Shown in pieces: positions 7,839 to 34,615 of a stretch of DNA of 40,163 bases (position 1 is the stretch's first letter; every line of letters begins with the position of its first letter). The notes under the pieces were generated by a model that saw only the letters and a list, made by a program, of their open reading frames with translations, had not been told where the DNA came from and made no database searches. A program made the position numbers and the translations under genes. The DNA lies in the NCBI GenBank assembly GCA_013152945.1, contig JAADFL010000025.1:1-40163 (forward strand), given 5' to 3'. The stretch is from Deltaproteobacteria bacterium. GTDB taxonomy: Bacteria; Myxococcota_A; JAADFL01.

Positions 7839-8642
7839 ATGGGCCGTATCAATAAGCTGGTCGCAGCAGTAGTCGTCTTTGTTTTCATTCCAGCCGTCGG
7901 GATAAACGCCCAGGAGGTGGATACTCCCAGGAAGGTTGTGCCGCTCAAGGATCGAATAAAGTCGGTCCAGCAGAAGGTGTTCCTGAAAAAGGGAAGGTTT
8001 GAATTCGGCCCGCTTTTCGGCTTCGGCTTAAATGATAACTATGTGCACAACTTCCAATTGGGAGCGATCTTGGCTTACCATATAACCGAGCAGTGGGCAA
8101 TCGAAGCGGGCGGCGGCTACACTTTGCACAAGGTCAAGGGCTGGATAGACGATGTGGAAAATGTCTACAACATGCAAATTTTCCCCCATATCGCCTATAA
8201 GGAATATGCGTTGAATGTCGGTGCCACATGGTCGCCTATCTATGGGAAATGGTCCATACTGGATGATTTCATCATACACCTCGACATGTATTTACTGGCC
8301 GGATTCTCCGGGTTGGGCGTGGATGGATCATTCAAACCCGGTGGCCAAGTGGGCGTGGGTATGAGCATATTTACTACAAGGTGGCTGTCCCTGAGGCTGG
8401 AATACAGAGATACGATGTACGGTCAGGATGGATTCGCCAACCACATGCTCTTCTTTGTCGGTGCCGGGTTCTGGGTGCCCTTCGATTTCCATTACACAAC
8501 AGGTGTAAAGACCATCAGGCGAACAGCCCGGCAGGAACAACCCGCAAAGAAAAAGAAGAAGAAAGAGGAGAAAAAGGAGGAGAAGAAGAAAGAAGAGAAC
8601 GAGCCTTCACTGGACGACATACAACTCGAACTCGGTGAGTGA
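7839..8642 (+). CDS. Outer-membrane beta-barrel protein (OMP_myx_plus type; GltA/GltB/NfsA/NfsB-like)
   Basis: An exported protein of 267 residues (270 if the ATG at 7830 is used). The signal peptide ends near GINA-QE. The mature part has alternating amphipathic strands with aromatic girdles (ITEQWAIEAGGGYTLH; TRWLSLRLEYRDTMYG) typical of the barrel family found in Myxococcota. In M. xanthus, barrels of this kind (GltA, GltB, GltH; NfsA, NfsB) are the outer-membrane part of the gliding and spore-coat machines. After the barrel comes an unusual Lys/Glu tail (about residues 230-250) ending in SLDDIQLELGE. GAGGAG (7822-7827) lies 2, 5 or 11 bases before ATG 7830, GTG 7833 and ATG 7839; the start is therefore uncertain, and 7839 gives the cleanest signal peptide. 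The next gene starts 12 bases after the stop. Confidence 0.82.
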   Translation: MGRINKLVAAVVVFVFIPAVGINAQEVDTPRKVVPLKDRIKSVQQKVFLKKGRFEFGPLFGFGLNDNYVHNFQLGAILAYHITEQWAIEAGGGYTLHKVKGWIDDVENVYNMQIFPHIAYKEYALNVGATWSPIYGKWSILDDFIIHLDMYLLAGFSGLGVDGSFKPGGQVGVGMSIFTTRWLSLRLEYRDTMYGQDGFANHMLFFVGAGFWVPFDFHYTTGVKTIRRTARQEQPAKKKKKKEEKKEEKKKEENEPSLDDIQLELGE

Positions 8643-8654
8643 GGGAGGCGCGGC

Positions 8655-10220
8655 ATGAAGTCAGCATCGCTTTCAATTGTCGCAGCCGTCTTGGCAGGGT
8701 TTTTCTTTCATCCCGGTATGGCTCTGGCCAAGGAAAAGACACTCGACCTGGGTCCCATGACACTCGATGTGGACAGCCCCCAGCGCAAGCGCCTCGATGC
8801 GGCCATGGAGGCGTATCAGAATAAACGTTTCTTTACCGCGAGTCAGGGTTTCTACAACTTGCTGCAGGATCCAGAGGCTGCCGAGTACCACGACAAGTCC
8901 GAGTACTATCTGGCCAAGTGCTTGCTGCATCTCGAGCTTTATCATGCAGCCTTGGGATGGTTCTCAAAGATCCTCGATCGAGGTCCTGAACACAAATTTT
9001 ACAGGAAAACATTCAAGTGGCTTTTCAAGATAAGCAGCAACATCAGAGATGAGCAATTGATTCTCGATTACATGGCAAGGGCCTCGTTACAAAAATTTCC
9101 AAGGCGTTACAAGAACCAGTTTTCCTACCTGTTGGGCAAATACCACTACCTTAGGGGAAATTTCCCGGACTCGAGGGAACTTTTGGCCAAGGTCTCACCA
9201 CGGTCGATATATTATGTGAAGGCAAAGTACCTCGAAGGTATCATGTTTTACAGGGAGGAGAGGCACCAGGAGGCTGTAAATACCATCAAGGCCATGGTGA
9301 AAGCATTCTACAGTCCGGACAACCCGTCTTTGGACGAAACGATTATTGAGATGGCTGTCCTGACGATAGGAAGGATCTATTACCAGAGGCATCGATTTTC
9401 CTTGGCGGCGAAATATTTCAGCCAGATATCCAGGGATTCCGAAAACTGGCTCGAGTCCCTGTTCGAATTGGCATGGACATATTTCAGGATGGGAGATGAC
9501 GACAAGGCCCTTGGCGCGCTTCATACGCTTCAGGCCCCGTTTTTTGCAAATGAGTACTACCCGGAGGCACTTATATTGAAGGCGGTCATCTACCATGAAA
9601 ACTGCCGTTATGAAAAATCCCGGGAGATACTGGAACAGTTCCTCGCCCAGTACAAGCCCTTGAGAGAAGAACTTAAAAGTTATTTGAGAGCCCATGCCGC
9701 TCCTGAAGATTACTATGCCTTGTTCGAGGGAACGTCATCAATCGGAGAGAATACCTTGATCCTGGCAAGGGTTTTGAAACTTGCCCTGCAAGACAGGGAG
9801 CTTCGCAGGATACGCTCTGCATTGAAAGAATTGAAAGACGAGAGGAACGTTGTGGAGAGTTCGGCCGGCAGGTGGAGGGGGACTCCTCTGATAGAAGCAT
9901 TACTTCGTGAATTGGAAAACAGGAAGAAGCAGCTAATAAAGAGGGCGGGAAAGATAATACAACGGAGCTTTGTGAGGGCCGAGGATCAATTGAGAGACCT
10001 GATCAACCAAGCTATGCGAATTCAACTGGAAACGACCTTGGGGGAGAAGGAAACCTTGGAAAAGGAGATGCAGGGGATGAAGCCGCCGAAGCCGATAAGC
10101 GAGTTCGAATGGACGTCCGATGTGGATGATGAACATCTGTACTGGCCGTGGGAGGGTGAATACTGGAGAGATGAACTCGGTACCTATGTGTACGCGATAA
10201 CAAGGAGGTGTCCGAAATGA
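8655..10220 (+). CDS. Periplasmic TPR protein (GltC/NfsC-like)
   Basis: A 521-residue exported protein with a signal peptide ending in ALA-KE (about residue 25). Most of it is TPR-like helical pairs (for example YHDKSEYYLAKCLLHLELYH and ENWLESLFELAWTYFRMGDD). The C-terminal quarter is a charged coiled coil (about residues 390-475) and then a short conserved-looking end, YWPWEGEYWRDELGTYVY, which I remember from myxobacterial relatives in the same gene position. GGGAGG (8643-8648) lies six bases before the ATG. The gene is 12 bases after the barrel gene and overlaps the next start by ATGA, so these are cotranscribed and likely translationally coupled. By position and domain content it corresponds to the periplasmic C component; the exact orthology is inference. 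Confidence 0.78.
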   Translation: MKSASLSIVAAVLAGFFFHPGMALAKEKTLDLGPMTLDVDSPQRKRLDAAMEAYQNKRFFTASQGFYNLLQDPEAAEYHDKSEYYLAKCLLHLELYHAALGWFSKILDRGPEHKFYRKTFKWLFKISSNIRDEQLILDYMARASLQKFPRRYKNQFSYLLGKYHYLRGNFPDSRELLAKVSPRSIYYVKAKYLEGIMFYREERHQEAVNTIKAMVKAFYSPDNPSLDETIIEMAVLTIGRIYYQRHRFSLAAKYFSQISRDSENWLESLFELAWTYFRMGDDDKALGALHTLQAPFFANEYYPEALILKAVIYHENCRYEKSREILEQFLAQYKPLREELKSYLRAHAAPEDYYALFEGTSSIGENTLILARVLKLALQDRELRRIRSALKELKDERNVVESSAGRWRGTPLIEALLRELENRKKQLIKRAGKIIQRSFVRAEDQLRDLINQAMRIQLETTLGEKETLEKEMQGMKPPKPISEFEWTSDVDDEHLYWPWEGEYWRDELGTYVYAITRRCPK

Positions 10221-13200
10221 TCGGCCGCCTGATTACCCTAATTACAGCGACTCTGGTTTCCTTTACTATGATGGTGCCTGTTTCCGCGCTTGGCGCAAAA
10301 AAAGAAGCTAAAGGCAAGAAAAAGGAAAATGCCCGGCCTACCTTGAAACTCCAGGATTTTTACGAGAAGAAGGAATTACAGGTCGGCGTCAAGCGGCGAG
10401 AGGCGATTCAGATGATCAAGAAATTGATCGCTGAAGGCGTATCTGACGAAAAGGAAAAACCCGACCTGTACTTCAGGCTCGCCGAGTTGTATTGGGAAGA
10501 GGGTGAGAGTTGGTATATGCAGGGCATGAGCGTGGATGATGATAAGAATCTTTCAAGGGCGGATAAGAAAAGAAAGAAGAGGGAATATTTTAAGAAGCAA
10601 AAGAAATTTCAACTCAAGGCCATCAACCTGTACAAGTCCATAGTTACTAATTATCCGACCTTTTACAAGAATGACGAAGTACTGTTCTACCTGGCGCAGA
10701 GCCAGTCCGAGGTCGGGCTCGAAAAGGAGTCTTTATACAACTACAGGAGACTCATCAAGGATTATCGAAAGAGCAGGTTCATACCTGATGCTTATCTGGC
10801 CTTCGGAGAGTACTATTTCGATCACAATGATCTGGAAAAGGGTTTGCGTGCCTATCTGAAAGTGGCTACCTTCAAGGAGGCGAAGGTCTATCCCTATGCT
10901 TTGTACAAGATAGGATGGTGTTATTACAATCTTGGGCACTTTGAGAAAGCACTCAAGAAATTCGAGCAAGTTATCAAGCTCCAGAAAACCGGTAGAAAGG
11001 GCCAGAAAAAGATGGCCTTACGTAGAGAGGCTATCAAGGATTTGGTTCGTACATATGCGCAAGTAGGCGAGCCCAAGGAGGCAAAGGATTACTTTCTCCG
11101 AGTGGCAGGTGAAAAGGACTATAAATGGATGTTGGAGGGGTTGGCGATAGCCTTTTCCGACCAGGGTATGGATGATTACTCGTCGGAAATATACAGAGTG
11201 CTGATTTCAATGAATCCGCAAAACCCCAAGAATCCCGTCTTCCAGGCAAAAATAGTGAGTAACACGCAAAGATTGGGTGACAAGAAACGGACTGTCCTGG
11301 AAGTATCCAATCTGGTGAGGATCTATAAGACATTCCTTGAGCAGGACCACCCTGCAAAAATCAAGAAAAAGATAGAGAGGAAAGTCGACAAACAGATCAG
11401 GATGCTGACGGAGATCTATCACTCCGAGGCCCAGAAAACCAAGAATACGTCCACATACAAGTTGGCTTTCAAGCTTTACAGTCTCTACTTGAAGCTGTTT
11501 CCGGATTCTCCCAAGGCCGACGAAATGCGCTTCTATTATGCTGATTTGGCTTATAAATTGCGGAAATACAAGCTGGCAGCCGAGGAGTATACCAAGGTTT
11601 TGAAAAAGAAGTGCGGCAAGGCCAAGGACAAGAAAGACAAGGGTATTCTTGCGGACGCCGCTTTTGGTGCAGTCTCTGCATGGGAGCGGCTGTCTAAGAG
11701 AAAATTGTCCCACCGGGGACAAGTGCGGACCAAGAAAAAGGGACAGGAGTACAAGCCTGAACCGCTTCCAGAGCCGGAAAAGAAGATGCTCGAGGCATGT
11801 GGCAACTATGTTAAATGTGTGCCGAACGGAGATCAGGCTCTTAAGGTTGCATACAATAGTGCACTGATTTTTTACAAGCACAATCATTTCAAGGAGGCTA
11901 TCAGGAGATTCGCTTTTATTACAGAAAAGCATCCGGAGGCAAGAGAAGCAGAGGCATCAGCCAACCTAATTCTTGATTCTTTCAACATACTCCGGGATTG
12001 GAAGAGTCTGAATCACTGGGCACGGAAGTTTCTGAAGGATAAGGTGATCTCAGGTAAAGAAAAAGGCAAGATGAAGGATAGGCTGAAAAAACTTATCGAG
12101 GAATCCCAATTTAAAATAGTGGAGGCCATGGCCAAGGGACAAAAGGGAGCCAAGGTGGCGGAGGCATGGCTTGCTTTTGTCAAAGAATTTCCAAAATCTT
12201 CCGTGGGAGACATGGCGCTTTATAATGCCTCTGTTCATTACATGTTGGACAAGATGATTGACAAGGCAATTAATGTCAGGGAAAGGCTTATCAAGGAGTA
12301 TCCCAAGTCAAAGCTTTTGGCAAAGACGACTTACCAGTTGGCAACCAACTACGAGCAGCTTGCGGAATGGGAAAAAGGCGCCAAGCATCTCGAGAATTTC
12401 TACAAACTCTCGGAAAAAAGACGAAAGAAGGCTTTGAGCAAGGATGAGCGCGATTTTTTCAAGAAGAATGCAGATAAGGCATTGAAGAGGGCGGGTATCT
12501 ACAGGGAGGCCCTGGGCCAGTACAGGAAGGCTGTGGACGACTGCCAAACCTATGCCAGAGTCTTCAGGAAGAACAAGGATGCGCATAAGGTGTTCTTCAG
12601 AATAGGATTGCTTTACGAGAAAGCCAAGATGTGGAGGAAGGCCGCGGATATCTACAAAAAATACAGGAAATTCAAAGGTGATCCTAACTTGATTCTCGAA
12701 GCTTCCACCAGACGCGGGCTGATGTTGCAAAAGATGAGGAAGAGAAAAGATGCCAAGAAGGCCTTTGTTGAAACAATAAAGTTGTTTAATGGTTTTATTA
12801 GACGTAAAAAGGTAATAACTAACGGTGAGCAATGGGTGGCGCAGGCTGATTTTATATTGGCACAGGATACCTTCGACGAATTCAAGGCCGTCAAGCTGAA
12901 ATTGCCGCAAAAAAAGCTTGAGAAATTGTTAATCAAAAAGGCGTCTCTTCTACAGAAGACAGAGGCGAGGTACAAGAGATTACTTAGATACAAGCACTCG
13001 GATTGGCCCATTGCAGCCCTGTTCAAGATAGGAATGGCATATCAGGATTTTGCAAAGTCATTGATCAAGGCTCCTGTGCCCCCGGGTATGACCCCGGAAC
13101 AAAGAGAAATTTATCGATCCGAGCTGGAAAGCAGGGCGATACCTGTAGAAGAAAAGGCCATGGAAGCCTATACAAAGGGTCTTCAGGCCAGTGGTCGCCT

Positions 13201-13354
13201 GGACATATACAATAACTGGGTCACTCGTACGGAGAGGAAACTCGCCGAGGTCAGACCTGAAGAGTATCCGGCCGATACCGAGCTGTTGTACAGCCCGGAG
13301 TACATGTACGAGGGATTTGTTGGAGCCGGCCTGATATCAGAAGGAGGCCGATGA
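10217..13354 (+). CDS. Long exported TPR protein (GltD/AgmU-like)
   Basis: A 1045-residue protein with an N-terminal signal peptide (hydrophobic residues about 5-25, cleavage near VSA-LG) and many TPR motifs along its length (for example YALYKIGWCYYNLGHFEKAL and DMALYNASVHYMLDKMIDKA). Lysine content is high. I chose ATG 10217 over GTG 10208 because AAGGAGG (10202-10208) lies eight bases before it; this ATG overlaps the upstream stop as ATGA. The downstream stop again overlaps an ATG (13351-13354). In M. xanthus, AgmU/GltD is a periplasmic TPR protein of similar size and neighbours. A role as periplasmic scaffold of the same envelope complex is inferred from the order of genes, not from a catalytic motif. 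Confidence 0.8.
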   Translation: MIGRLITLITATLVSFTMMVPVSALGAKKEAKGKKKENARPTLKLQDFYEKKELQVGVKRREAIQMIKKLIAEGVSDEKEKPDLYFRLAELYWEEGESWYMQGMSVDDDKNLSRADKKRKKREYFKKQKKFQLKAINLYKSIVTNYPTFYKNDEVLFYLAQSQSEVGLEKESLYNYRRLIKDYRKSRFIPDAYLAFGEYYFDHNDLEKGLRAYLKVATFKEAKVYPYALYKIGWCYYNLGHFEKALKKFEQVIKLQKTGRKGQKKMALRREAIKDLVRTYAQVGEPKEAKDYFLRVAGEKDYKWMLEGLAIAFSDQGMDDYSSEIYRVLISMNPQNPKNPVFQAKIVSNTQRLGDKKRTVLEVSNLVRIYKTFLEQDHPAKIKKKIERKVDKQIRMLTEIYHSEAQKTKNTSTYKLAFKLYSLYLKLFPDSPKADEMRFYYADLAYKLRKYKLAAEEYTKVLKKKCGKAKDKKDKGILADAAFGAVSAWERLSKRKLSHRGQVRTKKKGQEYKPEPLPEPEKKMLEACGNYVKCVPNGDQALKVAYNSALIFYKHNHFKEAIRRFAFITEKHPEAREAEASANLILDSFNILRDWKSLNHWARKFLKDKVISGKEKGKMKDRLKKLIEESQFKIVEAMAKGQKGAKVAEAWLAFVKEFPKSSVGDMALYNASVHYMLDKMIDKAINVRERLIKEYPKSKLLAKTTYQLATNYEQLAEWEKGAKHLENFYKLSEKRRKKALSKDERDFFKKNADKALKRAGIYREALGQYRKAVDDCQTYARVFRKNKDAHKVFFRIGLLYEKAKMWRKAADIYKKYRKFKGDPNLILEASTRRGLMLQKMRKRKDAKKAFVETIKLFNGFIRRKKVITNGEQWVAQADFILAQDTFDEFKAVKLKLPQKKLEKLLIKKASLLQKTEARYKRLLRYKHSDWPIAALFKIGMAYQDFAKSLIKAPVPPGMTPEQREIYRSELESRAIPVEEKAMEAYTKGLQASGRLDIYNNWVTRTERKLAEVRPEEYPADTELLYSPEYMYEGFVGAGLISEGGR

Positions 13355-13356
13355 AC

Positions 13357-15894
13357 ATGTGTACAAAGTTGAGGGTTAAAGTTGAAGGGTTGTTCCTGGC
13401 AATCCTGACAGCAGCAATGATCCCGGCATGCGGAGGGCCGCAGACAAAGAAGGAAGCGAGAGAGGTCAAGGCTGCTCCGAAACCAGCAAAGCGTCCATCT
13501 CTTAAGCCGATACTGCAGAAATACAAGGAGCAGAAAGCAGTCGGAGCAGTTGATTACAGCGGCCTTATCAAGGAATTGAAGGAAATAGTGAAATCATTTC
13601 CTGATTATGCTGAAGCCTACCATGACATAGGATTCCTCCTGGAGAGGAGTGGGAAGCTGGAACAAGCCGCCAATGCCTATAAAAAGGCAATCAAGGTAAA
13701 TCCAAAGCTCGAAGCTGCTGCAACAAACTTGGCCAGAGTTCTGATGAAAATGGGACGCGCAAAGGAGGGTTTGCAAGAATTCAGGAAATTGGCGGCCAAG
13801 CATCCTTCCAGCTCGGCGGTCCAGAAAAACCTGGGTGACATGTTACGTGCTGCAGGGAAATACAAGGAGGCGGAAGATGCATTCCACATGGCATTGGCCC
13901 GGGACCCGGACGATCCGGATACGCTTGCCCTCTTGGCCAGATTCTATTTTGAACAGGGTCGGACCGAATTGGCCAAAATGGTGGCGTCTATACTAATCCC
14001 GAGGAATGACAAGGCTGGCAGAAAAAAGCAAAACGCCGGTCTCTACAACTTGTTGGCCCAGAACTTGATTAAGGAAAAAAACTATCGCTTGGCAGTCAGA
14101 AAATTGAAGAGCGCCATAAAAGCCGATCCGACTTCCTCTGCGCCTAGGATGAACTATGGAATGCTGGCGTTGAAGTACTGGGATTTCGAGACGGCCAAGG
14201 AGAATTTCGAGGCGGTATTGAAGGTCGATCCGGGCTATGTAGATGCACATGTAGGCCTGGGCGTGGCATTGAGGGGCCTGAAGCGTTACGATGAGGCGAT
14301 TGCGCACTACAACAAGGCATTGGAGATCAATCCGAAATGTGAAAAGGCTTTATTTGCTCTTGGCGTGATCAATGAAAAGTTTATCGATCCTCCCAAATTG
14401 GAAGAGGCCAAGGATTATTTCCAGAAGTACCAGAAGCTTTTGGGTCCGCGTCTTACGAGAAAGGATCCGAGTCATTACCACCTGAAGGAAATCGTCTCGC
14501 GCATTTCTTATAAAAAACGGGAAGCGGAACGAAAGAGTATGCAGGAGAGGTTGGAGCAAGCCAAAGCGCGCAGCGAAGAAGAACGCAGACAAGTCGCGTT
14601 GAATTCCGCCAAGGCCATGGGAGAGACTGCTTTGAAAGTTGCGGTCTCGGCCGAAAAGGGAGCCAGGCAGGTCCTCAAAGAGTTGAACAAGGTGGAAGGG
14701 ACTGCACAGGCATCGCTTATAAAATTAGCGGCGGAGCAGACATTGTTCCAGGGTTGGAGAACGAAAATTGCGTCGAAGAGACTGGCTGATGCCGTGAAAT
14801 CAAAGGATCTGGGCGGTGCGAGGGAATCGTCTGATACTGCCTTGGGTTCTGCGGCAGTGGCCGAGTTGCTTGTTAAAGTTGCTGAAAAGCATCTTTCAGA
14901 GGCAAAGGCTGCCAATGCGGCAAAGGTGGCGAAGGTAGACGCCAAGGAAAGTGCGGAAGCGGCCAAGAAGGCTGCAAAGGCGGCAGCAGAGAGCGCAAAG
15001 GCTGCTGCTTCTACCGGGGAGAAAAAGCAAGCGGCTGTTGCCAAGGCTGCGGCCCAGGGTGCCATGAAGGCGGCACGGGTTGCCGAAGCAGCTTCAAATG
15101 CAGCTTCAAAGGCGGCCGACAAGAATGATGTCTCTGGCGCAAAGGGATCTGCAACAAAGGCAAAGGAGGCACGCAAGGAAGCCGAGGCTCTGGCAAAGAA
15201 GGCAGAGGATGCAAGGAAACAAGCCGACAAGGCTGCTAATGAAAAAAAGAAGGCAAAAGAGGCGAAGTTGAAGGGTGAGCTGGACAAGGCGGCCCAGAGA
15301 GCCAAGAAGGCCTTGGATGATGCGAATAGTGGCGCCACCGATGCATCGACTGCAGTGGAAGGCATCTTGGATTTGAATGTACCCCAGGCCGTGAAAGCAA
15401 AGAAGGCTGCAGCAAGAGCAGGAAGTTTGGCCAAGAAGGCCGCAGCCTTTTATGACAGGGTGACAAAGGCTGTTAACAGCAAGGACCCAAAAGCTGCAAC
15501 CAAGGCGGCCGATCAGGTTGAGCGGCTGGCCGGGCAGGTCAAGGAGCTGTCTAAGGAAGCCCAGGCCAAGGCCGAGGAAGCCAAGAAAGAAGCTGAAGCG
15601 AAAAAAAAGGCCGAGGAAGCCAAAAAGGTGGAAAAACAAAAAAGGCTGGAGGAAGAGAAGAAACTGAAGGAACAGAAGCAGCAATTGGAAGAAAAAAAGA
15701 AAAAAGCAGAAGAGGCGAAAAAGGCGGGTGAAGCGGCGAAATCCAGGGAAAAGATTAAGGAAAAAACCGCCGCCCCGGTTAAAGATGGGAAACCGGGTAA
15801 TGCCAATGCTCCGGTAAAAAAGAAAGAGGAGAAGAAAACAGAAAAGAAAACGGAAAAGACTAAAAAGAAAGAGGATAAGAAAAGTTCGAATTGA
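13357..15894 (+). CDS. TPR lipoprotein with Ala/Lys-rich TolA-like C-terminus (GltE/AglT-like)
   Basis: An 845-residue lipoprotein: the lipobox IPA-C places the lipid on Cys25. About residues 60-370 hold canonical TPRs with DPxxAxAxxNLG-type spacing (for example AYHDIGFLLERSGKLEQAAN). From about residue 385 to the end there is a long helix rich in Ala, Lys and Glu (AKKAAKAAAESAKAAAS and similar), closing with a Lys-rich tail. AglT/GltE of M. xanthus is an outer-membrane TPR lipoprotein in this gene position, but as I remember it is much shorter, so the tail is a lineage feature. Two ATGs compete: 13351 (overlapping the upstream stop) and 13357, which lies nine bases after AAGGAGG (13341-13347); I use 13357. 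The tail is long enough to cross the periplasm. Confidence 0.82.
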   Translation: MCTKLRVKVEGLFLAILTAAMIPACGGPQTKKEAREVKAAPKPAKRPSLKPILQKYKEQKAVGAVDYSGLIKELKEIVKSFPDYAEAYHDIGFLLERSGKLEQAANAYKKAIKVNPKLEAAATNLARVLMKMGRAKEGLQEFRKLAAKHPSSSAVQKNLGDMLRAAGKYKEAEDAFHMALARDPDDPDTLALLARFYFEQGRTELAKMVASILIPRNDKAGRKKQNAGLYNLLAQNLIKEKNYRLAVRKLKSAIKADPTSSAPRMNYGMLALKYWDFETAKENFEAVLKVDPGYVDAHVGLGVALRGLKRYDEAIAHYNKALEINPKCEKALFALGVINEKFIDPPKLEEAKDYFQKYQKLLGPRLTRKDPSHYHLKEIVSRISYKKREAERKSMQERLEQAKARSEEERRQVALNSAKAMGETALKVAVSAEKGARQVLKELNKVEGTAQASLIKLAAEQTLFQGWRTKIASKRLADAVKSKDLGGARESSDTALGSAAVAELLVKVAEKHLSEAKAANAAKVAKVDAKESAEAAKKAAKAAAESAKAAASTGEKKQAAVAKAAAQGAMKAARVAEAASNAASKAADKNDVSGAKGSATKAKEARKEAEALAKKAEDARKQADKAANEKKKAKEAKLKGELDKAAQRAKKALDDANSGATDASTAVEGILDLNVPQAVKAKKAAARAGSLAKKAAAFYDRVTKAVNSKDPKAATKAADQVERLAGQVKELSKEAQAKAEEAKKEAEAKKKAEEAKKVEKQKRLEEEKKLKEQKQQLEEKKKKAEEAKKAGEAAKSREKIKEKTAAPVKDGKPGNANAPVKKKEEKKTEKKTEKTKKKEDKKSSN

Positions 15895-15911
15895 AGACAT
15901 ATTTGAACCTG

Positions 15912-15940
15912 GTGAGCTTTGGAGCTGAATGAGTTATAAT
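15912..15940 (+). promoter_or_regulatory. Weak promoter candidate before the small secreted protein
   Basis: A perfect TATAAT (15935-15940) is preceded at 17 bases by GTGAGC (15912-15917), a poor -35 (3/6). It lies in the 100-base gap after the long operon and about 55 bases before the ATG at 15995. It may give extra expression to the downstream genes. Confidence 0.3.
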
Positions 15941-15994
15941 GAGTGCAGATGGTATCGGATTTTAGGAAACTCTTTGGTTCTTTGGAGGTGTAAA

Positions 15995-16312
15995 ATGAAA
16001 GCCTGCTTGAAACATACTTTTTTATTGCTCCTGGCATTCATTGTGGCAGTGTCATTGATGTGGATTCCTTCTTCTGCATATGCGGATGACGAAGATTCGG
16101 ATGAAGAGGCTGCGGAAGGAACCGTGTCCGAGGGGGGCGTGTTGTACAAGAAGAAGACCGTGTACGATTTCGAAGATGATACGATTACCGGCGATCTGAC
16201 AAAACCTGATGGAGAATTTTTGAGTAGTCGTGAAAAGACCAGGCATAAGAGCCTTATAAAGATAAGGGATAACTTTAAGGAGCAGATATTGCGGTCGGTA
16301 AATGAACTTTGA
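15995..16312 (+). CDS. Small secreted protein of a Glt-type locus
   Basis: A 105-residue protein with a clear signal peptide (hydrophobic residues 8-24, cleavage near AYA-DD), an acidic start (DDEDSDEEAAE) and a compact mature part containing YKKKTVYDFEDDTITGDL and a basic end (KIRDNFKEQILRSVNEL). I remember similar small proteins beside PglI-like genes in myxobacteria, possibly the GltF-type component, but the match is from memory. The ATG at 15995 has GGAGG (15984-15988) six bases upstream; an upstream ATG at 15929 would place 22 non-signal residues in front of the signal peptide and is rejected. The context, between TPR lipoprotein and FHA protein genes, suggests a periplasmic part of the same complex. 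Confidence 0.72.
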   Translation: MKACLKHTFLLLLAFIVAVSLMWIPSSAYADDEDSDEEAAEGTVSEGGVLYKKKTVYDFEDDTITGDLTKPDGEFLSSREKTRHKSLIKIRDNFKEQILRSVNEL

Positions 16313-16361
16313 TGGAACAAAGTAAATGTTGCGGGTGTCTGACGTATTAGTGAAGTCAGAA

Positions 16362-16549: not shown

Positions 16550-18712
16550 ATGGGTGTGCCGATTTTCCTTGAGGTCTTCAGAGAGGATGAACTGCTTGAA
16601 AAAATTTCCCTTGATAAAAAGGTCATCAAGATAGGCAGGCTTGCCTCGGCTCATGTGCGTATTGATGATGATGATGTATCGCGGGTCCATGCAGTGATTG
16701 AGGTTTCCGGGCCAGGCGAAATCTTTATTATCGATATGGGTAGCGCTAAGGGAACGTCTGTCAATGGCAAGAAAGTAACTACCAAAAGCAGGATATCCGA
16801 GGGTGATGAAATTGTCCTGGGAAAAATAAGAATCCTGGTTCATACGGATCCCGAAAAGATTGGAGTTCTTGAAACCGCCGGTGATGAACCAGAGGTGGAC
16901 AAGGGCGGGCAAGAAGAAGACTTAAAAGAGGACTCGGGTAAATCAGCGGAAGATAAAGTCATTGGGAATGAAGAGGAATCGGACTCCGTCTCCAAAGAAT
17001 CTCCTCCACGGGATGCTAAAGAAACTGTTATGCAGGAAACTGCAAAGTCTGAGACTGAGCCTCCGGCAGAGGCACAGAAGGTGCGCGAAATCAGTGGAAC
17101 GGGCGAACCGGTGGAACAGGAAGAGGAATCCGGCAGGGACTCGGAGCCGGAAGACCTGCCGGAACAGGAAGCTCTGGACGAGGATGACTATCCGGAAGAT
17201 GAAGAAGATCTGCATGACTATGAAGAGGGTTACCACGAGGATTACGAAGAATATGAAGGCTATGATCCTGATTTGAGTCTTACCGAGGAGGATTTGGAGG
17301 AGATTGAGGATCATAGGGCTGGCGAGGTCCTCCAGGTCAAGATGTTCTGGGAAGATACCATGCTCGGAGTCGAGCACCTGAACCCAAAGAAAAACCAAGT
17401 GATAACCGTAGGTGAAGACAAGAAGGCCCATTTTTACGTTCCTACCGATTCAGAAATGGATCTGTGGCCGTTGGTGAAGGTCGAGACAGGCGAATACCTG
17501 CTTTGTATAGCAGAAGGCATGGAAGGATATGTGGAAAGAGGTGGTGAGCGGACTTCTGTAAAGACATTGGTGGAAGAACGAAAAGCCAGGCCCAGTGATG
17601 AAGGAGATGGAATTTATGAGTATCCATTTCCAGGCGATGCCACGGCTCATGTTGCCTATGATACGGTGGAGTTCGACATCAAGTTCGTGGTTCCCGGTAA
17701 AAAAGTGGTGGTACCGTGGTGGACCACCATAAACTGGGCATTATTTCAGACCTTCATTTTAACCGCTGCTTTGGAAATTGCAGTATTGGGGCTTGCATTC
17801 TGGTATCCACCCGAAGCAGAGAGCTTGAGCCTCGACCTGTTTTCTACTCCCAACCGCTTTGTCAAGTTCATTATTCAGGCGCCAAAGGAAAAAAAGAAAA
17901 AGAATCTCAAGCTCGGCAAGAAACCGGGTAACAAGGGAAATGCCGGCAGGTACAAAGGCAAGGAAGGCCGGGCCGGCAACAAGAACAAGCCTATCAAGAA
18001 AAAGAAACTTTCCAGCGAGGACATCAAGAAGTGGCTGGATGCCACCAAGAGAGCCAGGGATGCAAAGGTTGCGAAGAGCAAGGGAATATTGAAGATACTT
18101 GGAAATGCAGGAGGAAGTTCCGGGCTCTCCAGCGTGTTCGGCCGAAGCGGACTGGGGGGTGATATCGACAGGGCCTTGGGTGGTGTCACTGGTGGCGCCG
18201 GCACGGGGAATTCCGACCTCGGAGGCTATGGAGGCCTGGGCGAAAGGGGCACGGGGCCTGGTGGAGGAGGCACGGGTGACCTGATTGGTCTTGGGAGATT
18301 GGGCACAGCCGGACGGGGTGGTGATGGTAACGGTTATGGTTACGGCATGGGTCAACTTGGCCGAAAGGGTGAACGAGGTGTATCGGTAGAGACAGGCCAG
18401 GCCATCATCATGGGAGCCTTGGATCGGTCTATTATCAAACGGGTTATCAGGAGTCACAGGGCCCAGATAAAGTATTGTTATGATCGAGAATTGGTCAGGA
18501 CAAAGGGATTGTTCGGCAAGATAGTGGTTCAATTTACAATACAACCTTCGGGAAGAGTATCACAGGCGAGTGTGGCACAGACTACCATGCATAACCGGAA
18601 CGTGGAGAACTGCGTGGTAACCCGGATCAAGACATGGCGTTTTCCGAAGCCAAAAGGTGGAGGTATTGTCATCGTCAAGTATCCGTTTATATTCAAGACG
18701 GCGGGAAATTAG
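16550..18712 (+). CDS. FHA-domain inner-membrane protein with AgmX/PglI C-terminal domain (GltG/PglI-like)
   Basis: A 720-residue protein with this order: FHA domain (residues 5-100; G29-R30, S44, H47 and N72-G73 match the phosphothreonine-binding positions), a very acidic linker (about 105-245), a second conserved beta-rich domain (about 255-385), one TM segment (about 393-418), a Lys-rich then Gly-rich periplasmic linker, and a TonB-like AgmX/PglI domain (about 618-720) with the two conserved cysteines in IKYCYDRELV and ENCVVTRIKTW. This matches PglI/GltG of the M. xanthus gliding machine, where the FHA domain is cytoplasmic and the C-terminus reaches into the periplasm. GGAG (16539-16542) lies seven bases before the ATG. 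An intact FHA suggests control by a Ser/Thr kinase, but no kinase gene is in the window. Confidence 0.88.
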   Translation: MGVPIFLEVFREDELLEKISLDKKVIKIGRLASAHVRIDDDDVSRVHAVIEVSGPGEIFIIDMGSAKGTSVNGKKVTTKSRISEGDEIVLGKIRILVHTDPEKIGVLETAGDEPEVDKGGQEEDLKEDSGKSAEDKVIGNEEESDSVSKESPPRDAKETVMQETAKSETEPPAEAQKVREISGTGEPVEQEEESGRDSEPEDLPEQEALDEDDYPEDEEDLHDYEEGYHEDYEEYEGYDPDLSLTEEDLEEIEDHRAGEVLQVKMFWEDTMLGVEHLNPKKNQVITVGEDKKAHFYVPTDSEMDLWPLVKVETGEYLLCIAEGMEGYVERGGERTSVKTLVEERKARPSDEGDGIYEYPFPGDATAHVAYDTVEFDIKFVVPGKKVVVPWWTTINWALFQTFILTAALEIAVLGLAFWYPPEAESLSLDLFSTPNRFVKFIIQAPKEKKKKNLKLGKKPGNKGNAGRYKGKEGRAGNKNKPIKKKKLSSEDIKKWLDATKRARDAKVAKSKGILKILGNAGGSSGLSSVFGRSGLGGDIDRALGGVTGGAGTGNSDLGGYGGLGERGTGPGGGGTGDLIGLGRLGTAGRGGDGNGYGYGMGQLGRKGERGVSVETGQAIIMGALDRSIIKRVIRSHRAQIKYCYDRELVRTKGLFGKIVVQFTIQPSGRVSQASVAQTTMHNRNVENCVVTRIKTWRFPKPKGGGIVIVKYPFIFKTAGN

Positions 18713-18818
18713 GTTATCCCCGCTTTATGGATAGTCTTGACGACAGGTGCTTTTCCCGCTGTTTTTCATAATTAGTGATCTTGGCAAATGAAACTGTTTT
18801 GAACTCACTTTTTTGAAA

Positions 18819-18887
18819 TGGTAATGATTTGAATCATTCGGACGGCAGCTTGAAATCCGGGTATCCCGCCAAGGATTTCAATTACCA
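18819..18887. other. Nested inverted repeats in a 588-base gap (possible structured RNA or cruciform)
   Basis: The contiguous arm 18873-18887 is complementary to two separate pieces: TTGAAATCC (18850-18858) and TGGTAA (18819-18824), all perfect. Between these two pieces lies a further hairpin, AATGATT-TG-AATCATT (18823-18838), and the apical loop holds CGGG-TAT-CCCG (18858-18868). No T-run follows, so it is not a standard terminator. The rest of the gap (18713-19300) contains a loose TTGATA/GAAAAT pair (18940-18968) and TTGACT (19054-19059) without a good -10, and no convincing gene. Confidence 0.5.
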
Positions 18888-19300
18888 AAAACAAATGGTT
18901 ATTACCTGCCCCGAGCTGATATGCAATTTTGTCACTTCCTTGATAGGCAGAACTCCTTGTATGAAAATTGCCGAAACTCCGGATTTCATGTTTGGACTTC
19001 GTCAATAATTCGGAGCCGAACCCATCTAACGGCCTTCTTCTTCTGAAAATTCCTTGACTTTAGGCACCCTCATGGTAGTAAAAAAAATGCGGGTATTGAA
19101 AGATTCCCGTCTTAATAAATGTGAAACGAGGATCAGGAGTAGGGTATATATGTTACAGCCTGTCAATGCCGGAAATGCCGACATGGCAATAATGAATTGC
19201 GTGACTTGTCGTAATGGTTCCCTGCGCATGCCGCTGCTGACCCTTGTTGGAGTTTTTAGGGCGGATTGTGCCGGGCAACGCCTATTTTGGAGGCAATATA

Positions 19301-20161
19301 ATGGTTAGGCAGTTGTGGTTGGTCGTTTTGATATTATTGTTTGCTTTTTCGGCATGCACTGAAAGAAAGCAGGCGGTCGAGCACAATAACAAGGGGGTTC
19401 ACTACGCCAGGGACGGCTATTATGACGCGGCTGTGGGAGAGTTCAAAAAGGCCTTGGCATTGAACCAGGACTACTCGGAATGCAGGGTGAATCTCGGACT
19501 CGTGTACATGAAGATGAAAAGGTGGGACGATGCAAAAGAGCAGTTTAATAAAGCGGTCAAGCAAGCCCCGGATAATGCGGAGGCAAGGTTCAACCTGGGA
19601 ATGGTATTCTTGCAAAAAAAGGATTACTCCAGCGCGGAAAAACAATTCAAGAAGGCGGTAGAACTCAACCCCGGGCATGCCAAGGCCAACTACAATCTGG
19701 GCGTAGTGGCCCAGGAGCTCGGCAGGAAATCGGAAGCCATCAGGGCCTATGAAAGAGCGATTGAATTGGATAAAGAGTTAATAGATGCATATATTCGTCT
19801 TGCTCAAATCTACCATGAACAAGGAGCATATGATCGCGCTGTTGGCGTTCTCCTGGACGCAGCCAGGATCAGGGATAACAATGAATTTCTTTTCAATAAT
19901 CTGGGCATGGCGTATGTGGGCCAGGAGAAGTATGAACAGGCTGTGGATGCCTTTGAAAAATCGGTAAAGATAAATTCCAAATATCCTGCGGCACAATTCA
20001 ACCTGGGGATGACATATGCAAAGTTGGAGAAAAACATTCCGGCAATGGAGCACTTGGAGGCCTACTTGAGGATTGCCAAGCGCGAAGACGATCCGGACAG
20101 GTTCGAGCAAGCACAGCAGACGATAAGTATCTTGATGAAAAAACAGTACGGCGGCCAATAA
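19301..20161 (+). CDS. TPR lipoprotein (second in the Glt-like locus)
   Basis: A 286-residue lipoprotein with lipobox FSA-C (Cys19) and about seven consecutive TPRs in near-consensus form (for example AKANYNLGVVAQELGRKSEA, EFLFNNLGMAYVGQEKYEQA). The fold resembles PilF/Tgl-type pilotins and AglT. The ATG at 19301 is set by GGAGG (19289-19293) at seven bases; the frame continues 57 bases upstream, but those codons show no signal peptide logic. The gene ends 37 bases before the start of the giant TPR gene. It probably sits on the inner leaflet of the outer membrane and helps assembly of the machine or binds the same partners as the longer TPR lipoprotein. The assignment as lipoprotein is firm; the partner is inferred. 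Confidence 0.85.
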   Translation: MVRQLWLVVLILLFAFSACTERKQAVEHNNKGVHYARDGYYDAAVGEFKKALALNQDYSECRVNLGLVYMKMKRWDDAKEQFNKAVKQAPDNAEARFNLGMVFLQKKDYSSAEKQFKKAVELNPGHAKANYNLGVVAQELGRKSEAIRAYERAIELDKELIDAYIRLAQIYHEQGAYDRAVGVLLDAARIRDNNEFLFNNLGMAYVGQEKYEQAVDAFEKSVKINSKYPAAQFNLGMTYAKLEKNIPAMEHLEAYLRIAKREDDPDRFEQAQQTISILMKKQYGGQ

Positions 20162-20198
20162 TAATTCTTGATGCCTGCCGGGCACCGCAGAGGAGACG

Positions 20199-26100: not shown

Positions 26101-29100
26101 AGGGCCGGGATGAAGAAGAGGTAGAGGAAGAAAGTGAGGAAAGTGAAGAAGAAACCCTGGAAAACCTCTATCTTGACACTGCCTCTGTATTGAGAGAAGA
26201 ACTTGGTGACATCGATGCTGCTATTGCACTGCTCGAGTCTGCCAAGTCCAAGGGAGTTGCGACTGAAGCCATTGAAGGAGATCTGGTGGATCTCTATATT
26301 GAAAACGGAAGCTGGGAGGCCCTTACCACCACCCTGGAAGAGAGGATCGCACACCAGGAAAAAGGGCCAGGTCTTTCCTCCATGCTTCTGAACCTGGCAA
26401 GAATATACAAGACGAAGCTCGGTGAGCCGGATCGTGGGTTGGATTTATTGGCTGAGGCGATTGATGCCGACCCGGAGAACAGAGAGGCTCTCGAGGAAAT
26501 GACATCTTTTTTGGAGGATGAAGACCGAAAAGATAAAGCAGCCGGAGTTCTGGTGGAGCATGCTGAACGGCTGGAGGCATGGGACGTTCTGTCCAGGGCA
26601 CTGGAGGTTGCCGTGGACATGGCGCATGATAAAGATCAAGGGGATCTGCTCAGAAAGGCCGCATGGGTACATGAGAAGAAGTTGAATGAGCCTGAGGTGG
26701 CTTTCGCGTATTTGAGCAGGGCTTTCAGGCTATCTCCTTTGATGCAGGATGTTCTGGAAGAGATTGAACGCCTGGTTGAAGTTACAAATAGTTACGAGGC
26801 TGCGGCGGGATTGTTCGAGGAAATGGCGGAACGTCTTGAATTTTCAGACAGAGCCGCGGCTGTAGACTTGTTTGCAAGGGCTGCCGGCATCTACATGGAG
26901 AAATTGGATCTGCCGGATCTGGCTGCAAGTTGTTACAGGCAGGTTTTGGACGTGGATCCCGAGCATGCAGAAGCTTTAAGGGGGCTTGTGAAGGTTTGTA
27001 AAGCAAGGGAGGCATGGGATGACTTGGCCGATGCCTTGTCAAGGGCTATCGCCGTAACAGGTGCAGGACCGGAGTTGGCTGAATTAGTATTCGAACTGGG
27101 CGAGGTCTATGAAAAACACCTGGATGACCTGCAAAGAGCAAGGGAGAATTACGAGCAAGTGTTGTCCATGGATGCAGCTCATCGTGGGGCACTGGAGGCT
27201 CTTGAAAGAGTTTATGAAGATTTCGAGGAATGGGGGCCCTTGTTTGAAATTTATGAAAAGGCGCGGGAACTGGCATCAAGCGAGGAAGCAAAAATCGAGT
27301 TTACCGCGAAAATGGCTGATCTGGCCGGTGAAGAACTCGGCATGAGGGAAAGGGCCATTGAACTGTGGAACGAACTGCTGGTAGCAGACCCCGAGGATCC
27401 GGATGCATTGGAGGCCCTGGAAGAACTCTACACCGCTACGGAGCGATGGCAGGATCTGGTCGAGATATACCGGAAGCAACTGGAATCTACCGTGGAGGAC
27501 GAGGAAAAGATCCGGCTTTTTACAAAGCTGGGTTATCTTCGCAGTGAAAAGATCAAGGAGTTGGACCAGGCCAAGACCGATTGGATTTGCGTCTTGAGGC
27601 TCGAACCGAACAACATGACGGCCTTGGCAATGTTGATGGAGGTGTACGAAGAAAAAGAGGAATGGGAAGATCTGGCCGCCATACTGAAACGTCTATGTTC
27701 ATTGCAGAAGAACGACGAGGTTAAGAAATCTCTGTACCTCAAGCTCGCTCTTGTTTACGGTGACAAGCTTGGCCGAAGGCAGGATGCAATAGCAGCGGGC
27801 AAGGAGGTACTGGAACTTGATCCTCTTACCGAGGAGGAGTTGGACAAATTGGCCGGAATTTTCCTGGACAACGAGGCATGGGAGGAAGCATCCGGTGTCC
27901 TCGAACGCAGGTGGGAACTTGCCGAGGATGAGCTGGAACAGGTGGAAGTACGCCGCAATATTGCAGAGATGTGGCGTGACCGGGCAATGGATGCAGGTAG
28001 GGCTGCACTGGAATACGAGAAGATTCTCAAAGCCGTTCCCTCGAATGAGCAAGCATTCAAGGCCCTGGATGAAATATTACGGACGAGAAGAGAATGGAAG
28101 AAACTTGCAACAGCCTTTGAAAGCAGGGGACAAGCCCTGGTGGAGTCAGGGGCCGATATCGGCGAAATAGTCGAGCACTATAGCGATCTGGCTGATATTT
28201 ATGAGAAAAAACTGGATGATCCGGTAAAGGCTCTGGCCGCCTGGAGAAGGGTGCTGGAAGTAGCCCCGGACAGTGGAGATGCAAGAGTTGAGGTAGAGCG
28301 GCTGGCTGCTGAAACAGGTGGTTTCGGTGAATTGGTTGAATCATTGGCTTCACTGATAGAAGAAGCGGATACTCCTTCTGCAGCAATTGGTTTGAGGTTG
28401 ACCAGGGCTCGAGTTCTCAAGGACGAACTGGATGATCTCGATCAAGCGGAGGAGGAATTCAAAGCAATTCTGGAAATAGCGCCGGAGAACAAGGAAGCTC
28501 TGGACTCTTTGGCCGCTTTGCTTAAAAAGAAAAAAGAATTCGGAGATCTTTCCGAGATTCTCGAAAGGCGCGCACATTGTGAAGAAGGACAGGCAAGGGC
28601 CGCTTTTCTGTTGGAAGCCGCCAAGGTCAGTGAAGAAAACCTTGACGATATGGAAAGGGCTACCAAACTGCGCAAGGAGGTGCTCCGGCTTGGAGGTGAA
28701 GCCTCGGAGGAGGCTCTTGAGGAACTTCGGCGTTCGTTGTCGCAGACTGAAGAGTTCGAAGAGTTGGCATCGGTGCTGGAGGATGCGGTCAGCCGGTCCG
28801 ACAGCAAGATAGATACCAGGAATAGTTTGGAGGAGCTAGCCCGGATTTACGAGAAGAAGCTGAAACAAGCAGACAAGGCAATCGAGAAACTTGAGATAGT
28901 AACAAAAGAGCACCCCAGGTATAGACCGGCATGGAAGGCCCTGGAAAGACTTTATCATAAAGAGGGAAAGTGGCGTGAGCTGATCGAGGTATACAATAAA
29001 CTTGTGACTTTGGCCGAAGAGGACGGGGAAAGGGTCGAACTTTATGCCAATGCGGCTGCGATTTGGGAAGAGGAATTCGGCGAGCGCGTAATGGCCATCG

Positions 29101-31958: not shown

Positions 31959-32001
31959 CCGCTGCCCGGTGGATTATTTCGAAGAGGGGTCGGACATGTT
32001 C

Positions 32002-32030
32002 TGGACAGTTGAAGCCAGTATTGGTACAAT
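32002..32030 (+). promoter_or_regulatory. Sigma70-like promoter before the GltJ-like gene
   Basis: TGGACA (32002-32007) and TACAAT (32025-32030) are 17 bases apart; each matches consensus 5/6. The start of transcription would be near 32037, about 57 bases before the ATG at 32094. It lies in the 135-base gap after the giant TPR gene and suggests separate control of the last component. Confidence 0.55.
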
Positions 32031-32093
32031 TAGAAGATGCCGGGTATGTAGGGTGGCCGAACATGGGGTTTTCGGACCCAGGTGGAGCCAGGT

Positions 32094-33131
32094 ATGAAGT
32101 TTAGCTGTGATAAGTGTAACACCTCGTATGTTATTGCCGATGAAAAGGTAGGGCGCAGATTAAAAGTGCGTTGTAAGAAGTGTGGCAATATCATATTGAT
32201 ACATGGCCGCACGGCGACGGTTCCTCCGGCTTCGGCAGTCGATGAGAGCGAGGTTACCCAGAGAGTGGTAACAAGCGCACCGGCGGCCGTTGATTCAGAG
32301 GCAAACCCATCGGCAGGAAATGAAGCCAAGGCGGGAAATGCGGGAGGAGGTCTGCTGCAAGGGCTTTCTTTCGACGACGAGAAGACCGTTCAATATGATC
32401 CGAGTGAATTATTGGGAAAGACAGAGGAAAAACCCGGGGAGAAGTCTGCAGACCTGGAAGGAGAAGAGGATCTTAGTGAGGAGGAAACCCGTGTATTTGA
32501 TGTAGAGCGTCTCCGGGAACTAATGGAAGAACGGGAAATAGCAGCGGCCGAGAAACGGGAGAGGCCGGCTGCAGGAATGCCCGGATTTGCGGTTCAGCCC
32601 CCCAGGCCTGCGTCAGAGCCGGTGTGGTACCTTGCTATCGGCGGGCGCCAGGTAGGCCCTTTGCCGATTGATGACGTCAAAGACAAAATGAAAAAGGGTG
32701 AAGTGGAACTGACCACCTATGTATGGCGCAGTGGATTCAAGGATTGGACGTACGTATCCGGAGTCCCCGAACTGGAAAGGTTGTATCGAGAGGCAGGGCC
32801 GAAAGAGGGCGTTGGTAAGGCAGGTGGGGAAAGTGCCGCTGGTCCGGTTGTGGCCAAAATAAAGATTTCTGAACGTCATCCCCTTACAACGGGCAGGATG
32901 TACGGTGGTGTAGCTGCCGGGCAGGCCGTTGACGAGCCTTTCGCCCAAGAGGGTAAACTACAGGAGAAGCAAGATGGTGCGATAGAGGTGAAGGTAGGTG
33001 GTCAGCGTGCTGTACACACTCCTTCGCCACAAAGAAAACGCAAGGCCACTGTTGTGGAATTCGATCTTTCCGAGTTGGCTTCCCTGGCGAAAAAGGAGGT
33101 GGAGGAGGAAGAGAACCGGAGGAGGAGGTAA
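32094..33131 (+). CDS. GltJ/AgmX-like protein, N-terminal part: zinc ribbon and GYF domain
   Basis: A 345-residue frame carrying the cytoplasmic half of an AgmX/GltJ-type protein. Residues 1-35 form a zinc ribbon of the MJ0042 kind (C5-C8 and C27-C30, with YVIADEKV between). A GYF_2-like domain follows at about 176-228 (WYLAIGGRQVGPLP; YVWRSGFKDW). In M. xanthus these two modules bind MglA/AglZ-type partners and control the machine. ATG 32094 is set by GGTGGAG (32081-32087); the in-frame GTG at 32082 is inside that site. The frame stops abruptly after an Arg run (33129-33131) in a purine-rich stretch, while the missing TM and C-terminal domain continue in the -1 frame just downstream. The gene is therefore best read as the first part of a split gene. 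Confidence 0.85.
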   Translation: MKFSCDKCNTSYVIADEKVGRRLKVRCKKCGNIILIHGRTATVPPASAVDESEVTQRVVTSAPAAVDSEANPSAGNEAKAGNAGGGLLQGLSFDDEKTVQYDPSELLGKTEEKPGEKSADLEGEEDLSEEETRVFDVERLRELMEEREIAAAEKRERPAAGMPGFAVQPPRPASEPVWYLAIGGRQVGPLPIDDVKDKMKKGEVELTTYVWRSGFKDWTYVSGVPELERLYREAGPKEGVGKAGGESAAGPVVAKIKISERHPLTTGRMYGGVAAGQAVDEPFAQEGKLQEKQDGAIEVKVGGQRAVHTPSPQRKRKATVVEFDLSELASLAKKEVEEEENRRRR

Positions 33132-33148
33132 AGGAGACCGCCCGGGAT

Positions 33149-34615
33149 TTGGCAAGGGACCTTGCAAAGGGCGATGCATTTTCCGAAGGGGCCGTAAGGG
33201 TCGAATCAAGGGCTCCGCAACACGCGGGGGAAGATGCGGCAACCGGTTCAGGGCAGGACGCGGTCGCACGGCAAGTCGAAGCAGGCGGCCCGTCTGTAGG
33301 AGAATTGATACAGCAAGAACTCGCAGCAGCAGATGATGAACAGGGGTCCCAGGGAATCCCGATAGCAAGGGCGGACGTCAGTGTTGCAGGGGAACTCCAG
33401 GAGAAGGTGGTGCCCAGCGCCAGAGCGGAGGATGCATACAAGAGAAGGGACAGTGGAATCTATAGTGCACGTAAGGGCGAGCCGGAAAAGAAAGCCCTGA
33501 TCAAAGTCGCAGCAGTTTCCTTCGTTGCAGCTACGCTTCTTTTCGGAGTGATTATTCCATTTGGTCTCGTGGTCGGCCTGAAGGTTCGGGTTCCACTGTA
33601 TTATGATTGGGTTTATGGAGAGGGTGTCGTAAACAATGCAAAGGCCGCTGTTGCAGGCAAGGGAAAGGTGTCGAAAAAAACGGCTGTAACGGAGCAACGG
33701 GCCGGGAGGCAAGGGAAAGAAAATATCGAGAAGGGCAAACCCGCTGACAAAACCGCCGATAATGAAAAGGTTGCGGCAAAAGAAAAGCCTGTGAATTCGG
33801 GAGGGGCGGTAGAAAAAAAGAAGAAGGAAGAAAACGAAAAAAAGGACAATGGCACCGAGCCCGGGCATGGGACTAAAAAGGTTGCAAAATCCAAACGTTC
33901 TTCACACAAGCTTGAAAAACAAAAGAACAGGTCATCGCGTTCGAGAAGAAACAGTTATGGCAGGCGTTCGAGTTACAGGACCGCATCCAGGAACGAAGCG
34001 CCGCAGCACAGACAGCGAACCGAGCCAGTATCGAGGCGCAGGTCGAAAATAAAGAGACAAGCGCAGAAAGCTTCTGTCGCGTCCGCAGACGAAGGCGATT
34101 TCGATGACATTTTGGATGACACACCCAAAGTGCCGATGGGTTCAAAGACAAAGAAAGATAAAGGCCTAAGGAGAAGATCGAGCAGGCGTTCTAAATCACG
34201 CGCAGCAGTTGAACCTGATTTTGGAGATGATGAAGAGGACTTCAAGCCGAGGAAAAAGAGGCACAAGGTCCAGCCTCCTCCGCCACCTATGCCAAAGCAA
34301 AAAAAAGGCGCAGTGTTGCCCGATACCTTGGGGAAAAAGGTAGTGCTCAATGGAATAAAGAGAGGGCTTGCAAGGATACAAAGATGTGCCCAGGAGCAAT
34401 TGAGCAGGGATAAGAGTGCTGTGGTGAGCAAGATAGTGCTGGGCTTTACGATTCAGCGTTCCGGGAGATGTACTAATATTTCCGTTGGCCCCAGCAAAGT
34501 GAAAGGAAGCTACCTGGAGAGTTGTGTCAAGAGGTCTGTAAGATCATGGCGCTATCCCAAGTTTTTCGGCGAAAATATAAAAGTCAAGATACCGTTGCCA
34601 TTGAATGTGCATTGA
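33149..34615 (+). CDS. GltJ/AgmX-like protein, C-terminal part: TM segment and AgmX/PglI domain
   Basis: A frame of 488 residues from a TTG at 33149, but open further upstream without a good start. It holds one TM segment (about residues 117-147, VAAVSFVAATLLFGVIIPF), a long Lys/Arg/Ser-rich periplasmic linker with a Pro run (QPPPPPMPKQKKG), and a TonB-like AgmX/PglI domain (about 394-488) with the conserved cysteines in IQRCAQEQL and LESCVKRSV. Reading back from 33149 in this frame gives acidic PEEEVKETARDLARD, which joins smoothly to the acidic end of the previous frame. The only start (TTG, 12 bases after AAGGAG at 33131-33136) is poor. Together the two frames give the full AgmX/GltJ architecture, so one missing base near 33089-33125, or -1 frameshifting, explains them best. 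Confidence 0.83.
   Translation: MARDLAKGDAFSEGAVRVESRAPQHAGEDAATGSGQDAVARQVEAGGPSVGELIQQELAAADDEQGSQGIPIARADVSVAGELQEKVVPSARAEDAYKRRDSGIYSARKGEPEKKALIKVAAVSFVAATLLFGVIIPFGLVVGLKVRVPLYYDWVYGEGVVNNAKAAVAGKGKVSKKTAVTEQRAGRQGKENIEKGKPADKTADNEKVAAKEKPVNSGGAVEKKKKEENEKKDNGTEPGHGTKKVAKSKRSSHKLEKQKNRSSRSRRNSYGRRSSYRTASRNEAPQHRQRTEPVSRRRSKIKRQAQKASVASADEGDFDDILDDTPKVPMGSKTKKDKGLRRRSSRRSKSRAAVEPDFGDDEEDFKPRKKRHKVQPPPPPMPKQKKGAVLPDTLGKKVVLNGIKRGLARIQRCAQEQLSRDKSAVVSKIVLGFTIQRSGRCTNISVGPSKVKGSYLESCVKRSVRSWRYPKFFGENIKVKIPLPLNVH

Follow-up and report, generated by a model that had tools for sequence, protein, structure and literature searches.

A predicted Glt-type gliding transducer cluster in an uncultured deltaproteobacterium whose Agl-family motor genes are carried on other contigs

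Introduction

Contig JAADFL010000025.1 of a deltaproteobacterial draft genome (GCA_013152945.1; GTDB lineage Myxococcota_A) carries a cluster of genes resembling those for the Glt (gliding) and Nfs (spore coat) complexes of Myxococcus xanthus, and the question it raises is which envelope-spanning machine the cluster encodes and what would drive it, given that no motor gene lies beside it. The window analyzed here is this whole contig (40,163 bases), and linkage beyond either end cannot be read. The original prediction, made from the window alone, recognized the kinship with Glt and Nfs but took the missing motor gene as a sign that the machine might have another cargo or function. The host draft comprises 4.84 Mb in 218 contigs at a completeness of 94.27%, so that some 6% of its sequence is possibly absent. 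With a GC content of about 50% in this contig, the host is not a classical myxobacterium, as its base composition had fairly suggested, and its relatives in the searched set are related at the phylum level only; two of these, MAG.78 and SKYG55, were deposited as Myxococcota.

Results

Judged by its sequence, the cluster encodes a Glt-type (gliding transducer) envelope-spanning complex, which places it on the Glt branch of the Agl-Glt/Nfs superfamily. Ten open reading frames (ORFs), all on the + strand and spanning 7830-34615, encode a GltA-like barrel, GltC, GltD, a GltE-like protein, CglF/GltF, GltG, a tetratricopeptide repeat (TPR) lipoprotein that we call T, GltI and GltJ, the last in two adjacent ORFs (Table 1). 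The order and common strand had been read correctly beforehand, whereas the count of nine genes fell one short because the AgmX-like protein occupies two frames. The ATGA overlaps noted between gltC and gltD (10217-10220) and between gltD and gltE (13351-13354) are real. The NCBI equivalog cut-offs were passed by GltC and CglF; GltE, GltG and GltJ found the expected proteins as their best-named families but scored below the cut-offs. No NCBIfam model specific to GltD or GltI was among the hits, and these two proteins were assigned by comparing them directly with known homologues. The window GltD is 32.9% identical over 1,081 amino acids (aa) to the Archangium GltD encoded beside GltE-F-G (478 bits), and the window GltI matches the 4,132-aa GltI of M. 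xanthus strain AM003 with 585 bits and 29.7% identity, the C-terminal end included, and the GltI of Archangium lansinium with 521 bits. The top matches of the barrel were the barrels adjoining GltC in Archangium (106 bits) and M. xanthus (105 bits). The superfamily core of GltC, GltD, GltE and GltG is present in one locus, with GltE and GltG below their equivalog cut-offs. Kinship with the Glt/Nfs machines is thus borne out by profile, PDB, tree and synteny evidence.

The cluster is Glt-like rather than Nfs-like given that GltI and GltJ are present, as in M. xanthus Glt, and that both are absent from Nfs (PMC3858216), which is defined by nfsA-H without them. The N-terminal half of GltJ matched the GYF domain (7z3c, 1.4e-9) and the zinc ribbon (7zok, 1.5e-7) of M. 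xanthus AgmX in the PDB. The AgmX/PglI tail of GltG scored 119 bits (cut-off, 40), and in a phylogeny of C-terminal tails it fell among those of other GltG proteins (support, 90/89), while the tail of the GltJ C-terminal half grouped weakly with GltJ proteins (94/53). A tree of GltD proteins puts the window sequence on the Archangium GltD side (Shimodaira-Hasegawa-like approximate likelihood ratio test [SH-aLRT], 87), and its paralogues from the same genome fall elsewhere: that of contig C74 with L233 of M. xanthus and L300 of Archangium (87), that of C78 with L296 and L286 (100), and that of C212 with L231 (100).

Gene order is conserved among relatives. Seven loci run C-D-E-F-G-T and then into the start of gltI (L117, L121, L129, L142, L146, L182 and L184), and three keep this order up to T, after gltG (L183, L178 and L195). 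All but L195 of these belong to clusters in metagenome-assembled genomes of Myxococcota, which continue into gltI wherever the locus extends; in contrast to this shared order, their larger proteins are only 25-37% identical to those of the window and their GltD proteins form a separate branch. A grouping of the parts that M. xanthus keeps in two loci, G1 (gltD-J) and G2 (gltK,B,A,C), was also noted in Anaeromyxobacter by Luciano et al. (PMC3169522). Since the fused layout is common to many Myxococcota and to Anaeromyxobacter, it is an established arrangement and no novelty of this host genome.

No MotA/TolQ/ExbB gene was found in the window, as had been stated before, and all eight matches in the genome lie on other contigs. 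Sorting by tree and neighborhood assigned these to TolQ on C10, MotA on C98, ExbB types on C51, C40 and C136, and two members of the AglR clade (support, 100/99), on C212 and C78. Some non-Agl rows of this tree were misread in frame and have very long branches, but support for the AglR clade is strong. Only the R genes on C212 and C78 are each followed by two ExbD-like genes, which is the R-Q-S pattern, and the host genome thus encodes Agl-type R-Q-S motors outside the window. Each set is linked to another Glt-like paralogue set and not to the window cluster: C212 also encodes GltG, two barrels, GltC and GltD, and C78 also encodes GltD, GltE and GltG. In M. xanthus, aglRQS is likewise unlinked from glt (PMC3169522), and a single Agl motor, which binds both GltG and NfsG, drives the two machines (PMC3858216). 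The absence of a motor gene from the locus is therefore no sign of another function, given that the same holds in the M. xanthus type system, and the step from missing motor to different cargo fails. The switch genes are present as well: mglB and mglA are adjacent at C110:576-1700, the MglA protein aligns with M. xanthus MglA over its full length (356 bits), MglB scores 206 bits, and the genome yielded only a single Robl_LC7 protein.

Homologues of A, C, D, E, F, G, I and J are common to the window and to M. xanthus Glt, the motor of which is AglRQS (M1). The two systems share a GltG built of an FHA domain, a transmembrane (TM) segment and a tail, a GltJ built of a zinc ribbon, a GYF domain, a TM segment and a tail, a giant TPR GltI, unlinked motor genes and mglBA. 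They differ in that the window joins G1 and G2 parts, has T at the place of gltH, splits GltJ into two ORFs and has a VWA gene linked to it. The window resembles Nfs in holding homologues of A and C-G in one cluster without a motor gene; unlike the window, Nfs lacks GltI and GltJ. With the core complexes described in gammaproteobacteria, Geobacter and Fibrobacter (PMC3169522) the window has C, D, E and G in common, but in those complexes aglR, aglQ and aglS belong to the locus itself and F, I and J are absent, and it is the host locus on C78 that resembles them.

The putative VWA gene encodes a lipoprotein with a MIDAS motif and lies 77 bases upstream of the barrel gene. Its lipobox, its DNSGS motif and the Thr and Asp positions are conserved in an alignment of five sequences. 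Profile scores were 51 bits for the NF052240 MIDAS adhesin and 28 bits for CglD, both far below cut-off, and 24.3 for Pfam VWA_2 (cut-off, 27). A PDB profile search with the window VWA family found nothing; a low-confidence structural model (mean predicted local distance difference test score, 39.7) gave Foldseek hits mainly to VWA proteins in the PDB, integrin beta chains, Ku and SpaC among them, which is a hint only. The same gene stands upstream of A-C-D-E-F-G in two other genomes, at loci L116 and L119. Six such VWA places occur in the genome, and two of the four host Glt-type loci have a VWA/MIDAS lipoprotein gene alongside. In M. xanthus, the gliding machine includes the VWA lipoproteins CglB and CglD (PMC13104615, PMC4488436). 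From this linkage, the window VWA protein may be the adhesin of the window complex. Another VWA gene, with choice-of-anchor-D repeats, lies beside the Glt set on C74 (L045:8910-11909), and its relatives are found next to A-C-D-(E)-J sets in two other genomes (G383 and G384).

Whereas gltJ is a single ORF in M. xanthus, Archangium and the other genomes compared, it occupies two in the window. A codon-usage scan showed that the coding signal shifts frame (-1 offset) near 33075-33100, ahead of the stop at 33131 that closes the first frame, inside a purine-rich run and just after GCG AAA AAG. A ribosome-binding-like AAAGGAG lies 5' of TTG 33149, the start of the second ORF. The split may reflect an indel in the assembly, a -1 frameshift or a genuine division of the gene.

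Apart from the C78 and C212 sets, the host has a second, more Nfs-like Glt set on C74 (L045, L046), which runs A-C-D-E-F and breaks off at the contig end within the start of G. Contig C48 (L052:1-768) opens with a GltG tail followed by CglE/GltH. C48 is probably the continuation of C74, giving an A-C-D-E-F-G-H layout; the join is ambiguous because the end of C142 has the same 100-odd bases.

Several other genes of the window lie outside the cluster. An M23 endopeptidase (ShyC-like) gene overlaps a family-3 glycoside hydrolase (beta-N-acetylhexosaminidase-like) gene at 164-2916, possibly a peptidoglycan-remodelling pair. A Cys-rich lipoprotein with no family match is encoded on the - strand at 5118-5852, divergent from the VWA gene. 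An FHIPEP export-gate protein is encoded at 37124-39094, where SctV of type III secretion (658 bits) outscores FlhA (544 bits), both below cut-off; its gene adjoins a PqqD-like gene and an OPT transporter gene. Searches of the window for tRNAs and Rfam families gave zero matches.

Table 1. Coordinates of the cluster features in the window and of the motor Q genes on other host contigs
Feature	Position	Strand	Evidence
VWA/MIDAS lipoprotein, candidate CglB/CglD-like surface adhesin	6094..7752	+	lipobox, DNSGS MIDAS
Outer-membrane beta-barrel, GltA-like	7830..8642	+	TIGR04565 102.7 bits (cut-off 60)
GltC	8655..10220	+	NF033756 479.9 bits (cut-off 450)
GltD-like TPR protein	10217..13354 (alternative GTG start 10208)	+	comparison with Archangium GltD, tree, ATGA start
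GltE-like TPR lipoprotein, long Ala/Lys/Glu-rich tail	13351..15894	+	NF033758 123.9 bits (below cut-off 225)
CglF/GltF small secreted protein	15983..16312 (listed ORF start 15929)	+	NF033764 100.5 bits (cut-off 90)
GltG: FHA, TM, AgmX/PglI TonB-like tail	16550..18712	+	NF033760 500.3 bits (below cut-off 650); FHA PF00498
588-base gap at the gltH place of M. xanthus; no CglE/GltH	18713..19300		sole genomic CglE/GltH lies elsewhere
TPR lipoprotein T, several TPRs	19301..20161	+	between gltG and gltI, likewise in relatives
GltI-like giant TPR protein, 3919 aa	20199..31958	+	match to M. xanthus GltI
GltJ N-terminal half: zinc ribbon, GYF domain	32094..33131 (listed ORF start 32082)	+	NF033761 129.1 bits, profile 1-199 (cut-off 450)
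Overlap of the two gltJ open frames	32957..33131		codon-usage scan
GltJ C-terminal half: TM, AgmX/PglI tail	33149..34615	+	NF033768 58.4 bits (cut-off 40); NF033761 47.2 bits, profile 536-668 (cut-off 450)
Asn-bearing Q genes of the host genome (G000)	C78 L048:17231-17791; C212 L014:7512-8027		Asn in the membrane helix (PMMNL, PIMNL)

Discussion

The complex most likely serves gliding by focal adhesions, a reading that we hold with moderate confidence given that its parts are homologous to those of Glt, that gene order and VWA linkage are conserved, and that R-Q-S sets and mglBA are present in the genome. One Agl-family proton motor, encoded by the R-Q-S genes of either C212 or C78 or by a further set that the draft lacks, would engage the TonB-like tails of GltG and GltJ. 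In the cytoplasm, MglA-GTP would recruit the complex via the zinc ribbon of GltJ and the GltI scaffold, a contact presumed from work on M. xanthus. Force would then pass through the periplasmic D, E, F and C proteins to the outer-membrane barrel, which may hold the VWA lipoprotein encoded upstream as a surface adhesin. The choice of motor, the membership of the VWA protein, the MglA contact and the gliding output are inferred here.

We considered that a Glt-family complex could instead transport a surface polymer or adhesin without cell movement, as in Nfs-like assembly of a spore or capsule coat or in adhesion to prey or substrate. Nfs uses the same parts and the same motor as Glt (PMC3858216), GltH and a second barrel are missing locally, and a VWA adhesin gene is linked, all of which would suit such a role. 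However, the window encodes the GltI and GltJ that Nfs lacks, the genome has mglBA, and the more Nfs-like set of this host is the one on C74 with its probable continuation on C48, and we regard transport without gliding as unlikely. Somewhat doubtful, in our judgment, is the proposal that a dedicated AglRQS ortholog is missing from the draft and that this cluster has no connection with the motors of C212 and C78; it is compatible with gliding, and its probability overlaps that of the gliding reading. The completeness of the draft leaves room for such a gene set, and the two motors that were recovered are each tied to a different Glt-like set and lie, in the AglR tree, on the side of M2, but both of these R-Q-S sets are complete, and M. 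xanthus offers a documented case of two complexes sharing one motor (PMC3858216). That the cluster is decaying or nonfunctional, as the split gltJ might indicate, we consider very improbable, since all other genes are open, including the 3,919-codon gltI, and a frame switch within a purine-rich run could plausibly be an assembly or sequencing indel, with a ribosome-binding-like sequence preceding the second ORF.

Several observations weigh against assigning the cluster to gliding. The scores of GltE, GltG and GltJ lie below the equivalog cut-offs. GltH/CglE was looked for in the cluster and not found, the only genomic copy being at C48:220-765, beside another GltG tail; nor does the window hold a recognized GltK or a second barrel, having one barrel gene, and GltB and GltK were not searched for with models genome-wide. 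The genome-wide search for the motor and switch gave two Agl-family R-Q-S sets and mglBA, but an ortholog of AglR/AglRQS (M1) proper, which corresponds to L280 in strain AM003 by exact lengths of 245/162/194 aa, was not found in the 94%-complete draft, and both host R proteins lie on the side of M2, the other M. xanthus set (support, 99/94). The host belongs to an uncultured lineage and also carries flagellar genes (C98). Finally, Asn replaces the Asp that is essential in AglQ in both host Q subunits (PMMNL and PIMNL), while S keeps its Asp. Given the results for GltH and for AglR proper, we stop short of counting the cluster as an M. xanthus gliding machine in the strict sense.

The Q substitution bears on how such motors work. 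In M. xanthus, Asp28 of AglQ is essential, and with D28N proton conductance is lost and the machine is paralysed (PMC3858216). Across 43 Q sequences, the Asp position holds Asn in 28, Gly, Ala or Ser in one each, and Asp in 12, among them M. xanthus AglQ and the M2 Q; 31 of the 43, which come mostly from the same phylum, thus lack the Asp, a proportion that is not representative because the sample was picked by similarity to an Asn-bearing Q. At 30 loci similar to the C78 Q, the Asp is kept in every S with a readable membrane helix. We offer as a speculative proposal, rather unlikely as it stands, that a gliding-type Glt machine of a deep lineage runs on an Agl-family motor with the proton-binding Asp in S only, Q having lost it. 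If true, motors of this kind would work as asymmetric Q-S heterodimers, or Q would serve as a nonconducting component. Whether AglQ and AglS form homo- or heterodimers is a stated open question (PMC9389320), on which a natural Q without the Asp would bear, as it would argue that every working motor of this type needs S.

With this cluster, Glt loci bearing GltI and GltJ now reach an uncultured lineage without close relatives in the searched set. Here the parts of both M. xanthus glt loci sit together with a candidate gene for a VWA adhesin, an arrangement suggesting that adhesin and transducer possibly formed a single unit in the past.

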